A stretch of DNA of 43,868 bases from Acidobacteriota bacterium (GTDB lineage Bacteria; Acidobacteriota; Blastocatellia; Pyrinomonadales; Pyrinomonadaceae), in the NCBI GenBank assembly GCA_021323895.1, contig JAJPKD010000274.1, positions 1 to 43,868 of the forward strand, read 5' to 3'. Position numbers and translations under genes: made by a program. The notes under the pieces are model-generated. The model was not told where the DNA came from and ran no database searches. It saw only the letters and a list, made by a program, of their open reading frames with translations. Positions 1 to 25,667 of the stretch are shown here, piece by piece. Position 1 is the first letter of the stretch. Each line of letters opens with the position of its first letter.

Positions 1-2091
1 GTCGGCGGCGGTCGGCATGATGTAGTTGGTCATCTGCCCGTTAGCCATGCGGCCGTTTTGCCAGACGACGTTTTCATAGAGCGTCATGCCGATAGCTTGA
101 GCAACACCGCCTTCGATCTGTCCGGCGGCGAGCGTGGGATTGATGACGCGACCAACTTCCTGGACCGCCACAAAATCATCGACGCGCGCTTCGTAAGTCA
201 GCGGATCGTAAGAAACTTCCGCGACGTAAACGGCCCAGGCAAACGCGCCGTACGCGTCGCCCTGATATTTCTCGTCGTCCCAGTGAACATTCGGTGGCGG
301 TTGATATTGGCTCGCAGTTTTCAGCGAGCCAAACTTTGCGATGTAATCGGCGCAGGCTTTTTGAAATTCAGGTTGAGTGAATTGATCTTGCAAAAGACCG
401 CTGCCGATCAGAGTTTGTTTCAGACCGAGCACGGCTGACTCGACCAACTTGCCGACGATCATCGTCGTTCGTGATGCGACCGTAGGGCCACTGTTGGGAA
501 CGTTGGCGGTGTCGGGTTGGACAACTTCGATCAAATCGTAATCGATGCCGAGCGCCTCCGAAGCAATCTGACCAAAGATCGTGTTCGTGCCTTGCCCAAT
601 TTCCGTGCTGGCCGCGAGAATCTTGATGCGTCCTTCGACTGTCGCTTCCGCGCAGACAACCGACTGCAAATATACTTCACCCGAACCGGTGAAACCTGCG
701 CCGTGCATGAACGTCGCGAAGCCGATGCCTTTCAAGTGGCGCAAATTGCCAATTTGCGCTACAGCGTTCTCCTTCGCGAACCGCTCTCGCTTCACATGAT
801 AATCCGTTAACTCGAATGCGCGATTTAGCAGTCCATCAAAATCAACTTTCTCGCGAATCGTTTGACTAGTTGCCGTCGTCTCGCCTTGCTTGATGAAGTT
901 GCGCCGGCGAAATTCTTCCGGCGTAAGGCCAATCGTCTTCGCGACTTTGTCCATGTGCCGCTCGAGCGCAAAGATGCTTTGCGGCGCGCCGAAGCCGCGA
1001 AACGCTCCGTGCGGCGGCGCGTTCGTCGCAACCGCGCGACTGTTGATGCGCACGTTCGGACAGGAGTAAGGACCGGCAGCGTGAATTGTCCCGCGCGAGA
1101 GCACGACCGGCGAAAGCGTGCAGTAAGCCCCGCCGTCGATCACGAAATCGATCTCCATCGCGAGCAGCTTTCCGTCTTTAGTGACTGCGGTCTTGTGACG
1201 CGTGCGCGAAGGATGACGCTTCGTGGTCGCAACCATGTCTTCCGCGCGGTCGTAGATCATCTTCACCGGCTTGCCCGACTTCCACGCCAGCAGAGCCGCG
1301 TGACCGCTGATCATCGACGGATATTCTTCTTTGCCGCCAAAGCCGCCGCCGGTTTCGGTTTGAATGACGCGAATTTTTTCTTCGGGCAGGCCGAACAGTT
1401 TCAGCAGCGCTTTGTGCACGTAGTAAGGGCACTGCATCGATCCCCAAACCGTCACGCCATCGTTTGGATTGGCAATCGCGATTGCGCCGTTCGGCTCGAT
1501 ATAAAGCTGCTCCTGCGCGCTGGTTTCGTATTCGCCTTCAACGATGAAGTCGGCGTTGGCCCAGGCGTCATCGACGTTGCCTTTATCAACCAGAAGCTTT
1601 TTGAAGACGTTGTCGTCGCCCCAAATGATTTCGTTCTTAGCAAGCGAATCCTGCGGCGAGAAAATCGCGGGCTGCTCTTCGTAATCAATTCGCACGTGAC
1701 GACGCGCTTCTTCGAGCAAGTACTTGTCGTGATGAGCCAGCAGCACGATCGGCTCCTCAGGGTGATTGACGAATCTGTCGGCGAGATACGGCTGGTCATT
1801 GAGGATCAGCGCGACGCAATTCTCGCCTGGAATATCTTTCGCGGTGACGATCGTGAATTCATCCCAGGGAATGAAGTCAGTACCACCTGCGGTAGCGGGT
1901 GGGTTATCCGGGGCAGTTGACGGGGCTGGTTGTTCGAACGAAATATTCTTGATGCGTCCGCGCGGAATCGAGCTGCGCACAGTTACTCCGTGCAGCATCC
2001 CATTGAACGAGAGATCGTCAACGTAGAGCGCCGCGCCGGTAACTTTCTGGCGACCTTCTTTGCGGGGAATGGATTTGCCGATGAGTGCCAT
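1..2091 (-). CDS. Xanthine dehydrogenase-like molybdopterin-binding subunit (3' end outside window)
   Basis: This is the large Mo-cofactor subunit of a xanthine dehydrogenase/aldehyde oxidase family enzyme, which hydroxylates purines or aldehydes. The minus-strand frame is open for 697 codons from an ATG at 2091 to the window edge, so the C-terminus is missing. It opens with IGKSIPRKEGRQKVTGAALYVDD, the usual N-terminus of the family, here read as two parts: IGKSIPRK and VTGAALYVDD. The glycine-rich GGGFGGKEEYPS motif lies near residues 246-257, followed by the AFRGFGAPQ and GQGTNTIFGQIASEALGI segments that line the Mo-pterin pocket. It starts 9 bp after the purF stop, so it is probably cotranscribed with purF, which would fit a purine-related substrate. 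Two segments look like captured dispersed repeats: about 18 residues near residue 60 (NPPATAGGTD) and AQIGNLRH near residue 445. No FAD or Fe-S subunit is visible here. The family call is firm; the substrate is not. Confidence 0.9.
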   Translation of the reverse strand, partial: MALIGKSIPRKEGRQKVTGAALYVDDLSFNGMLHGVTVRSSIPRGRIKNISFEQPAPSTAPDNPPATAGGTDFIPWDEFTIVTAKDIPGENCVALILNDQPYLADRFVNHPEEPIVLLAHHDKYLLEEARRHVRIDYEEQPAIFSPQDSLAKNEIIWGDDNVFKKLLVDKGNVDDAWANADFIVEGEYETSAQEQLYIEPNGAIAIANPNDGVTVWGSMQCPYYVHKALLKLFGLPEEKIRVIQTETGGGFGGKEEYPSMISGHAALLAWKSGKPVKMIYDRAEDMVATTKRHPSRTRHKTAVTKDGKLLAMEIDFVIDGGAYCTLSPVVLSRGTIHAAGPYSCPNVRINSRAVATNAPPHGAFRGFGAPQSIFALERHMDKVAKTIGLTPEEFRRRNFIKQGETTATSQTIREKVDFDGLLNRAFELTDYHVKRERFAKENAVAQIGNLRHLKGIGFATFMHGAGFTGSGEVYLQSVVCAEATVEGRIKILAASTEIGQGTNTIFGQIASEALGIDYDLIEVVQPDTANVPNSGPTVASRTTMIVGKLVESAVLGLKQTLIGSGLLQDQFTQPEFQKACADYIAKFGSLKTASQYQPPPNVHWDDEKYQGDAYGAFAWAVYVAEVSYDPLTYEARVDDFVAVQEVGRVINPTLAAGQIEGGVAQAIGMTLYENVVWQNGRMANGQMTNYIMPTAAD
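740..763. repeat. Dispersed palindromic repeat inside the xanthine dehydrogenase gene
   Basis: A 24-bp segment is identical to 25644-25667, which is intergenic. It contains an 8-9 bp inverted repeat (CGCAAATT-GCC-AATTTGCG). In this copy it is translated in frame as part of AQIGNLRH in the minus-strand gene. It reads as one family of dispersed stem-loop elements that has entered a coding region. Confidence 0.7.
1874..1906. repeat. REP-like element inside the xanthine dehydrogenase gene
   Basis: The element begins GTCAGTACC and continues as a hairpin with arms CCACCTGC and GCGGGTGG around GGTA. It matches the arms of the REPIN at 25131-25242 at about 21 of 27 positions, including the complete GTCAGTACC head and the TAGCG core. 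It is translated as NPPATAGGTD and falls where the protein seems to have an insertion of about 18 residues. Confidence 0.65.
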
Positions 2092-16137: not shown

Positions 16138-16141
16138 CGCC

Positions 16142-16279
16142 ATCCGCAGATTACGCCGATTGCACAGATAGAAAGTTAGGCTTTAGATCAGGTCGAAGAA
16201 GTTGACACCTGCGGACTCGTAATGCTCGGTCTTCTTGTTGATTGATTCTTAATCTGTGCAATTTGTGTAATCTGCGGAT
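16142..16279. repeat. Paired inverted repeat, TCCGCAGATTAC family, copy 1
   Basis: Two 28-bp arms, 16142-16169 and 16252-16279, are inverted copies. The outer 13 bp (ATCCGCAGATTAC) and the inner 11 bp (ATTGCACAGAT) pair perfectly around a 4-bp mismatch. The spacer is 82 bp. It begins 4 bp after the fumC stop. The same family recurs at 24222-24320. Confidence 0.8.
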
Positions 16280-16291
16280 AGCCCGCTCAAA

Positions 16292-24221: not shown

Positions 24222-24320
24222 TCCGCAGATTACGCAGATTACACAGATAGGAAATGCAACCGGAGATCAAGAGTCAGCTATACTCATGCCCTAATCTGTG
24301 AAATCTGCGTAATCTGCGGA
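24222..24320. repeat. Paired inverted repeat, TCCGCAGATTAC family, copy 2
   Basis: Arms of 27 bp at 24222-24248 and 24294-24320 are inverted copies with one mismatch. They share TCCGCAGATTACGCAGATTA-type text with the element at 16142-16279. The spacer is 45 bp and unrelated to that of copy 1. It lies between the SDR gene and the UBP finger gene, both on the minus strand. Confidence 0.8.
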
Positions 24321-24330
24321 TGGTGCTTCT

Positions 24331-25122: not shown

Positions 25123-25130
25123 GACGTCTG

Positions 25131-25242
25131 TGTCAGTACCGCGAGCGATAGCGAGCGGATATAACAAGCTCCATTGAGAAAAAACGTGAAACGTATGCGC
25201 CAGATTCATTTGATCCGCTCGCTATCGCTCGCGGTACTGACA
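25131..25242. repeat. REPIN: two perfect 30-bp inverted arms
   Basis: Arms 25131-25160 and 25213-25242 are perfect 30-bp inverted copies around a 52-bp spacer. Each arm begins with GTCAGTACC-type text and contains a GCGATAGCG core. It begins 3 bp from the cupin stop and ends 9 bp from the SDR start, so it fills the intergenic space of this pair. A related single arm sits in the xanthine dehydrogenase gene at 1874-1906. Confidence 0.85.
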
Positions 25243-25244
25243 CG

Positions 25245-25619: not shown

Positions 25620-25643
25620 TGGTTCGTCTCCTGTTCGATGTGA

Positions 25644-25667
25644 CGCAAATTGCCAATTTGCGCTACA
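25644..25667. repeat. Dispersed palindromic repeat, intergenic copy
   Basis: A 24-bp sequence identical to 740-763, with the hairpin CGCAAATT-GCC-AATTTGCG. It lies in the 271-bp gap between the divergent cupin and poly-Gln protein genes. I see nothing else definite in this gap. Confidence 0.7.

Follow-up and report, generated by a model that had tools for sequence, protein, structure and literature searches.

How does a palindromic repeat come to lie within the open reading frame of a conserved enzyme, and is such a case unique? The question is raised by the first gene of the DNA stretch analysed here (the window, 43,868 nt), which is contig C305 of the host genome G000 (4.4 Mb, 322 contigs). 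The features concerned are listed below.

1–2091, minus strand: gene for a molybdopterin-binding subunit of the xanthine-dehydrogenase (XDH) family; its 5' start is at 2091 and the contig start cuts it off
1873–1932, minus strand: residues 54–73 of the product, P0001 (QPAPSTAPDNPPATAGGTDF), a segment missing outside the genus in the orthologue alignment (net +18 aa)
1876–1902, plus strand: REP hairpin core of subtype A (GTCAGTACC-ACC-TGCGGTAGCG-GGT-GG), an exact copy of a genomic 27-mer
25130–25243: REPIN away from the enzyme gene, made up of two 31-nt REP arms of subtype GTCAGTACCGCGAGCGATAGCGAGCGG in inverted orientation, 52 nt apart and 100% complementary in the repeat search
736–763: unrelated palindromic repeat in the XDH gene (GCGCAAATTGCCAATTTGCGC core at 739–759), coding for AQIGNLR (residues 445–451) and recognized from its genome copies
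25640–25667: other window copy of the GCGCAAATTGCCAATTTGCGC palindrome, 96% identical to 736–763

The REP in the xanthine-dehydrogenase family gene

The host gene is intact and shares 86–89% identity with its orthologues in congeners. Pfam analysis found the a/b hammerhead and MoCoBD domains that mark membership of the family (MoCoBD_1 3.6e-86, MoCoBD_2 2.2e-60, Ald_Xan_dh_C 1.6e-13), and the top structural matches obtained with Foldseek were xanthine oxidase/dehydrogenase. The NCBIfam equivalogs for named substrates all scored below cut-off for P0001, and as far as this evidence goes the assignment therefore stops at the xanthine-dehydrogenase family.

The 27-mer at 1876–1902 of the plus strand is GTCAGTACCACCTGCGGTAGCGGGTGG. 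Read on the minus strand it is in frame and codes for the peptide PPATAGGTD, and the frame of P0001 runs open through it without stop or frameshift. It is predicted to fold into an 8-bp stem with a tetraloop (dG −8.1 kcal/mol, z −3.3), and it stands single, with no inverted partner. A degenerate REP pattern found only this site and the two REPIN arms in the window, the latter at 25132–25158 and 25215–25241, with a chance expectation of 0.00. The initial annotation had put the likeness to the REPIN arm at about 21 of 27 positions; direct reading gives exactly 21/27 against the arm at 25132, with mismatches at positions 10, 12, 13, 17, 23, and 25. The single stem pair said to change from A-T to G-C is pair 10-25, which is A-T in the XDH copy and G-C in the arm. 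An insertion of about 18 residues had also been proposed. This holds for the net length relative to the orthologues, but the REP core accounts for only nine residues; the remainder is made up of the neighboring residues QPAPSTAPDN, which are not clearly REP-derived and may be an older, decayed copy.

In the AlphaFold model of P0001 (mean pLDDT 80) the insert lies between the strand at residues 45–52 and that at 80–82, with pLDDT below 50 at residues 63–70. The Mo-cofactor domains start near residue 164. On this model the insert is probably a disordered excursion outside these domains, and the REP hairpin is predicted to be translated as an extra surface loop of the enzyme.

A REP family with covarying stems

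The genome of the host contains seven exact copies of the 27-mer and 27 with ≤3 mismatches, while the reversed control gave 0. The degenerate family comprises 222 copies genome-wide (105 + 117), again with 0 for the reversed control, as expected of a short imperfect palindrome with many dispersed copies. A Pro/Ala/Gly-rich loop whose codons resemble a REP by convergence might be imagined, given the low-complexity residues and the GC-rich codons. Against this stand an exact 27-mer with its seven copies in varied contexts, the empty controls and an expectation of zero in the window; the genomic copy number rules out a chance match, and we consider the probability of this explanation negligible.

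Our census took in 142 of the ~222 copies. Their conserved consensus is about GTGTCAG(T/A)ACC-NNN-(A/T)GCGNTAGCG-NNN-GGATCA. Inverted pairs are frequent, as already seen for the pair in the window: for 82/142 REPs a second, inverted copy lies within 150 bp, mostly 28–31 nt away, so that the two form a REPIN. A comparison of 30 distinct units showed 28 changes affecting both members of the variable stem pairs 10-25 and 11-24 at once, vs. 9.4 in shuffles (0/500 reached 28). The covariation is 0.264, compared with 0.068 for the shuffles and ≤0.069 for slid controls, as for a stem kept up by compensatory changes. In DNA folding, subtypes A and B gave stems of 8–10 bp closed by a tetraloop. Position −1 of the REP is T in 104/142 copies and C in only 11/142. 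The tag of the GTAG/CGTC super-families is not a conserved feature of the 142 copies, which have a GTGTCAG head and no conserved GTAG foot, and no Rfam family covers the repeats of the window. A REP in the strict sense is extragenic. Here the XDH copy and 18 other events lie inside Pfam-bearing ORFs, and the majority of the remaining copies lie outside them.

Empty and filled sites among orthologues

The relatives with names were Blastocatellia/Pyrinomonadaceae MAGs, and the genomes compared are drafts. Outside the genus the site is empty (..ISFEGDIPWDEF..) in >40 orthologues, where it reads like ..RGRIKNISFEGDIPWDEFTIVTA.. and is of near-constant length. Within the genus, the site is covered by G000, G001, G002, G004, and G006; G003 (a gene fragment) and G005 (no close orthologue) were left out. 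All five covering genomes (5/5) carry a REP peptide, in diverging versions:

G000: SFEQPAPSTAPDNPPATAGGTDFIPW, net +18 aa
G002: SFDQPPATAGGSDRNIPW, net +10 aa
G006: SFDNPPANAGGSDLSIPW, net +10 aa
G004: SFDQPPAIADGSEPNIRW, net +10 aa
G001: SFEQPPAGGNDKNIPW, net +8 aa

At the DNA level G000 is an exact subtype A and G002 an exact subtype B, while an ungapped comparison gave 3 base differences for G006, 4 for G004, and 9 for G001. The insert had been expected to be absent or polymorphic in orthologues, and it is indeed absent from the >40 outside the genus and variable among congeners; the contrary outcome, distant orthologues with identical residues, was not observed. Together with the open frame and the genomic REP copies, the empty sites bear out the proposal that a mobile repeat entered a conserved enzyme without breaking its frame. 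Judged from these alignments, the insertion is genus-wide rather than new to the host strain. Since every covering genome has the peptide, the insertion goes back to the ancestor of the genus or to an earlier point on its stem, provided that it did not recur. Neither a target-site duplication nor an exact insertion boundary could be defined.

The four-fold sites of the XDH gene are only 44–57% identical between G000 and its congeners. Under plain decay (simple F81 model), a single lineage would keep all eight REP four-fold sites unchanged with a probability of about 0.01–0.07. Exact copies of two subtypes in two lineages, despite such divergence, therefore suggest that the REP was refreshed by re-insertion or gene conversion, few as these sites are.

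The other palindrome within the XDH gene belongs to a family (GCGCAAATTGSCAATTTGCGC) with ~56 genomic copies with ≤3 mismatches and 0 in controls; most of the copies examined lie outside long ORFs, and two further in-frame copies are found in AddB (L121). AQIGNLR falls in a loop of variable length among orthologues; at this place the UBA6041 protein (L158) has a repeat-like peptide of its own, GAERGPRAGSPRGVLEG. In another loop, the G034 orthologue (L034) has a different insert of 14 aa after 'TAKDI', RGGGKYGKSHGGPL, which is not a REP by pattern. The window also holds a further inverted repeat family (TCCGCAGATTACGCAGATTACACAGAT...) at 16139–16282 and 24222–24323, with arms that are 87–96% complementary.

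Instead of a single insertion in the ancestor that later decayed or was converted, each species might have received its own insertion into the same permissive loop. The exact copies of different subtypes in G000 and G002, at strongly diverged synonymous sites, would fit such recurrence. So would the eight extra residues beside the REP in G000, the different repeats per species in the loop near residue 445, and the loops of MutS2, SMC, and MetH, whose REP-like content differs between congeners. However, G002, G004, and G006 agree in net length (+10 aa), junction and orientation, for which a single insertion is the simplest explanation. We give recurrent insertion appreciable weight, well short of even, and favor the single ancestral insertion.

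REPs in other conserved genes

A search for other in-frame copies, as the initial annotation had suggested, revealed PPATAGG(T/S)D- and S(V/E)PPAVAGG-type peptides in many conserved proteins of the same genome. Among the 142 REPs surveyed there are at least 19 in-frame REP or REPIN events in Pfam-supported genes of G000. Long ORFs that appeared spurious or to be N-terminal extensions (L075, L003, L125, L069, and L013) were left out, and L006, L120, and L145, which have no Pfam match, were not counted. By reading frame of the REP the events are:

Forward frame +1 (SVP.A.A.G): Lhr helicase (L118), L024, CarB (L129), RND pump (L115), MutL (L132), SMC (L072), AddB (L121), porphobilinogen deaminase HemC (L066), MetH (L062), MutS2 (L022), PrmA (L025)
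Reverse frame 0 (PPATAGG(T/S)D): XDH, AMMECR1 (L009), VWA (L018), methyltransferase (L026), LUD (L017), geranylgeranyl-reductase-like protein (GGR, L078)
Forward frame 0: GH57 (L126), L078

Two Pro/Ala/Gly/Ser-rich frames of the four open ones hold 17/19 events (P = 3.6e-4, uncorrected and with the frames picked post hoc). Entire REPINs have been captured in CarB, Lhr, SMC, AddB, and MutS2. According to the orthologue alignments, the HemC REP is private to G000, the AMMECR1 REP is common to G000 and G006, the GGR REP to G000, G004, and G006, and the CarB REP is found in 5/6 genus members; decayed REPs also occur among the orthologues of decorated genes. The outgroup sites are empty for CarB, PrmA, MutL, AMMECR1, and GGR, and the loops of MutS2, Lhr, SMC, and MetH are variable in outgroups as well. 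Orthologues of the LUD-domain gene were not cleanly recovered. REP capture is thus pervasive and not one event.

Could the peptide, or the hairpin itself, be selected for a function, either in the mRNA (translation pausing, stability) or as a loop that alters the enzyme? The exact preservation of the XDH REP in two lineages could be read in this way, as could the fact that no genus member covering the site is without it, but the copies in G001 and G004 have lost REP bases and residues, the insert is disordered in the model, and the decorated proteins are unrelated and share no common function. We therefore regard a selected function as improbable and retain a tolerated insertion as the preferred reading.

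Two observations on related genomes may be added. In the congener G001 a subtype-B REP is in frame in diaminopimelate epimerase (DapF; L093, 1355–2224), where it codes for SEPPAVAGG ahead of the SGNGTRC motif. A longer recurring peptide (ADRGPRAGSPRGVVDATGS / GAERGPRAGSPRGVLEG) is found in the UBA6041 orthologue (L158, 1501–3666), the MutL of G006 (L189), and the MetH (L296) and SMC (L303) of G004; it may stem from a third repeat that was captured, perhaps from a REP whose own loop became longer.

REP capture within and outside the genus

REPs lie in ORFs of ≥150 aa in 34/142 cases in G000 and in 5/19 in congeners, vs. 2/82 in other genera (four genomes; p = 3e-6), counts that reflect one ORF criterion and partial sampling and in which REPIN arms are not independent. 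The picture was the same for a matched subtype, with 15/45 vs. 2/79. Both outgroup cases probably reflect spurious ORFs. In the other genera sampled, REPs have been captured in ORFs far more seldom, which we take as a strong lead and not as a rate.

RAYT transposases linked to the REPs

A RAYT gene bracketed by REPs is the arrangement that defines RAYT/REP systems. In G000 an ORF for a Y1 transposase (C88, 141–704; L060) is bracketed by six REPs. It passes the PF01797 cut-off of 23 weakly, with 26.5 bits, and by inspection contains NHVHTVV, a HUH-like motif. Its reading frame, 141–704, opens within a REP (MSVPRAIASRS), and from this sequence the transposase may carry a REP-encoded N-terminus.

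RAYT homologs are present in 10 of the 12 genomes searched, and in many cases REPs of a single subtype bracket the gene. The congener G001 has a RAYT (L281) bracketed by GTCAGAACCGCCTGCGGTAGCGGGCGG, exactly the subtype B of the G002 XDH orthologue, and in G020 a RAYT (L270) is bracketed by GTCAGTACCGCCTGCGGTAGCGGGCGG. CCGG-type REPs bracket L266, L271, and L280. The bracketed arrangement was thus found for L060/L265, L266, L270, L271, L275, L280, and L281, and the same pattern gave no flanking REPs for L269, L272–L274, L282, and L283. It is also given as the defining one in the parts of PMC3733652 considered here. The high-scoring Y1_Tnp (PF01797) genes of relatives were considered as mobilizer and rejected, as they are mostly unlinked to REPs and only a low-scoring RAYT-like subfamily is linked. 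A RAYT bracketed by subtype A was looked for in G000 and not found, and the subtype-B RAYT of G001 appears broken; present-day mobility of the REPs is therefore unproven.

Proposed origin and implications

Very probably, a surface loop of the XDH subunit acquired an in-frame REP, in or before the ancestor of this Pyrinomonadaceae genus, from a source REP or REPIN moved by a RAYT, and this REP was then tolerated and turned over. The agent, we infer, was a RAYT-type Y1 transposase that acted in trans on the source element. Persistence of the insertion may be explained by two of the four open frames: they code for short Pro/Ala/Gly/Ser/Thr peptides, presumably neutral and tolerable in a surface loop, whereas selection would have purged insertions that hit the protein core or were read in other frames. 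The XDH site would later have turned over, by decay in G001 and G004 and by re-insertion or gene conversion in G000 and G002, and the same process would account for the REPs in many more conserved genes of these species.

More tentatively, RAYT-mobilized REPs might act as a standing generator of loops, which supplies many core genes in loop-compatible frames and is refreshed by re-insertion or conversion instead of decaying, so that a loop cycles through subtypes; we consider this rather doubtful at present.

REPs are named as extragenic elements, and this lineage offers a replicated natural experiment in how selfish hairpins turn into protein sequence. One genome alone shows at least 19 events in conserved genes, relatives have empty sites, and congeners have shared, private and decayed copies. 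Other genera of the family are rich in REPs, of which hardly any in our sample lie in genes. It becomes possible to count directly which frames are used, which loops tolerate an insert and how copies turn over, and nature's own insertions map permissive loops of unrelated proteins such as CarB, HemC, PrmA, and DapF.

Comparison with known systems

The closest precedent is the survey of Di Nocera et al. (2013; PMC3733652), the only literature we found that joins REPs, Acidobacteria and protein-coding sequence. In the parts of this survey considered here, REP hairpins and dimers of the GTAG/CGTC type are described in ORFs of conserved genes, many of them for DNA repair; intragenic dimers or groups code for extra peptides of 20–30 aa, the REPs are associated with RAYTs, and insertion in linkers or loops is proposed. 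The same parts mention acidobacterial tyrosine transposases and no intragenic REPs in Acidobacteria. The in-ORF hairpins, extra peptides and RAYT link are shared with our case, which also includes mutL, mutS2, addB, and lhr. Unlike those REPs, the present ones come from another phylum and have a GTGTCAG(T/A)ACC head and no conserved GTAG/CGTC foot. Comparison of congeners here also resolves the empty site, the sharing across the genus, the bias in frame and the turnover of subtypes.

A second parallel is the RPEs of Rickettsia, for which we know of no transposase. RPEs are palindromic mobile repeats of ~150 bp found in frame in unrelated genes, where their peptides are tolerated (PMC10969869). 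Compared by description, both systems show in-frame capture of such repeats in unrelated genes, but the present elements are REP units of 27–34 nt or REPINs, have a linked RAYT family and reside in non-Rickettsiales soil bacteria of another phylum. With the REPIN/RAYT systems of Pseudomonas and E. coli they share inverted pairs, subtype families and a REP-bracketed Y1 transposase (PMC8049555). Classic REPINs are described as extragenic (PMC8049555), whereas about a quarter of the REPs sampled here (34/142) lie in ORFs of ≥150 aa. In-frame palindromes in conserved genes were earlier known from only a few bacteria, e.g., Rickettsia and Opitutus. Since intragenic REPs and RPEs have already been described, in-frame REPs are a known kind, of which the acidobacterial case is a new one with better evolutionary resolution.
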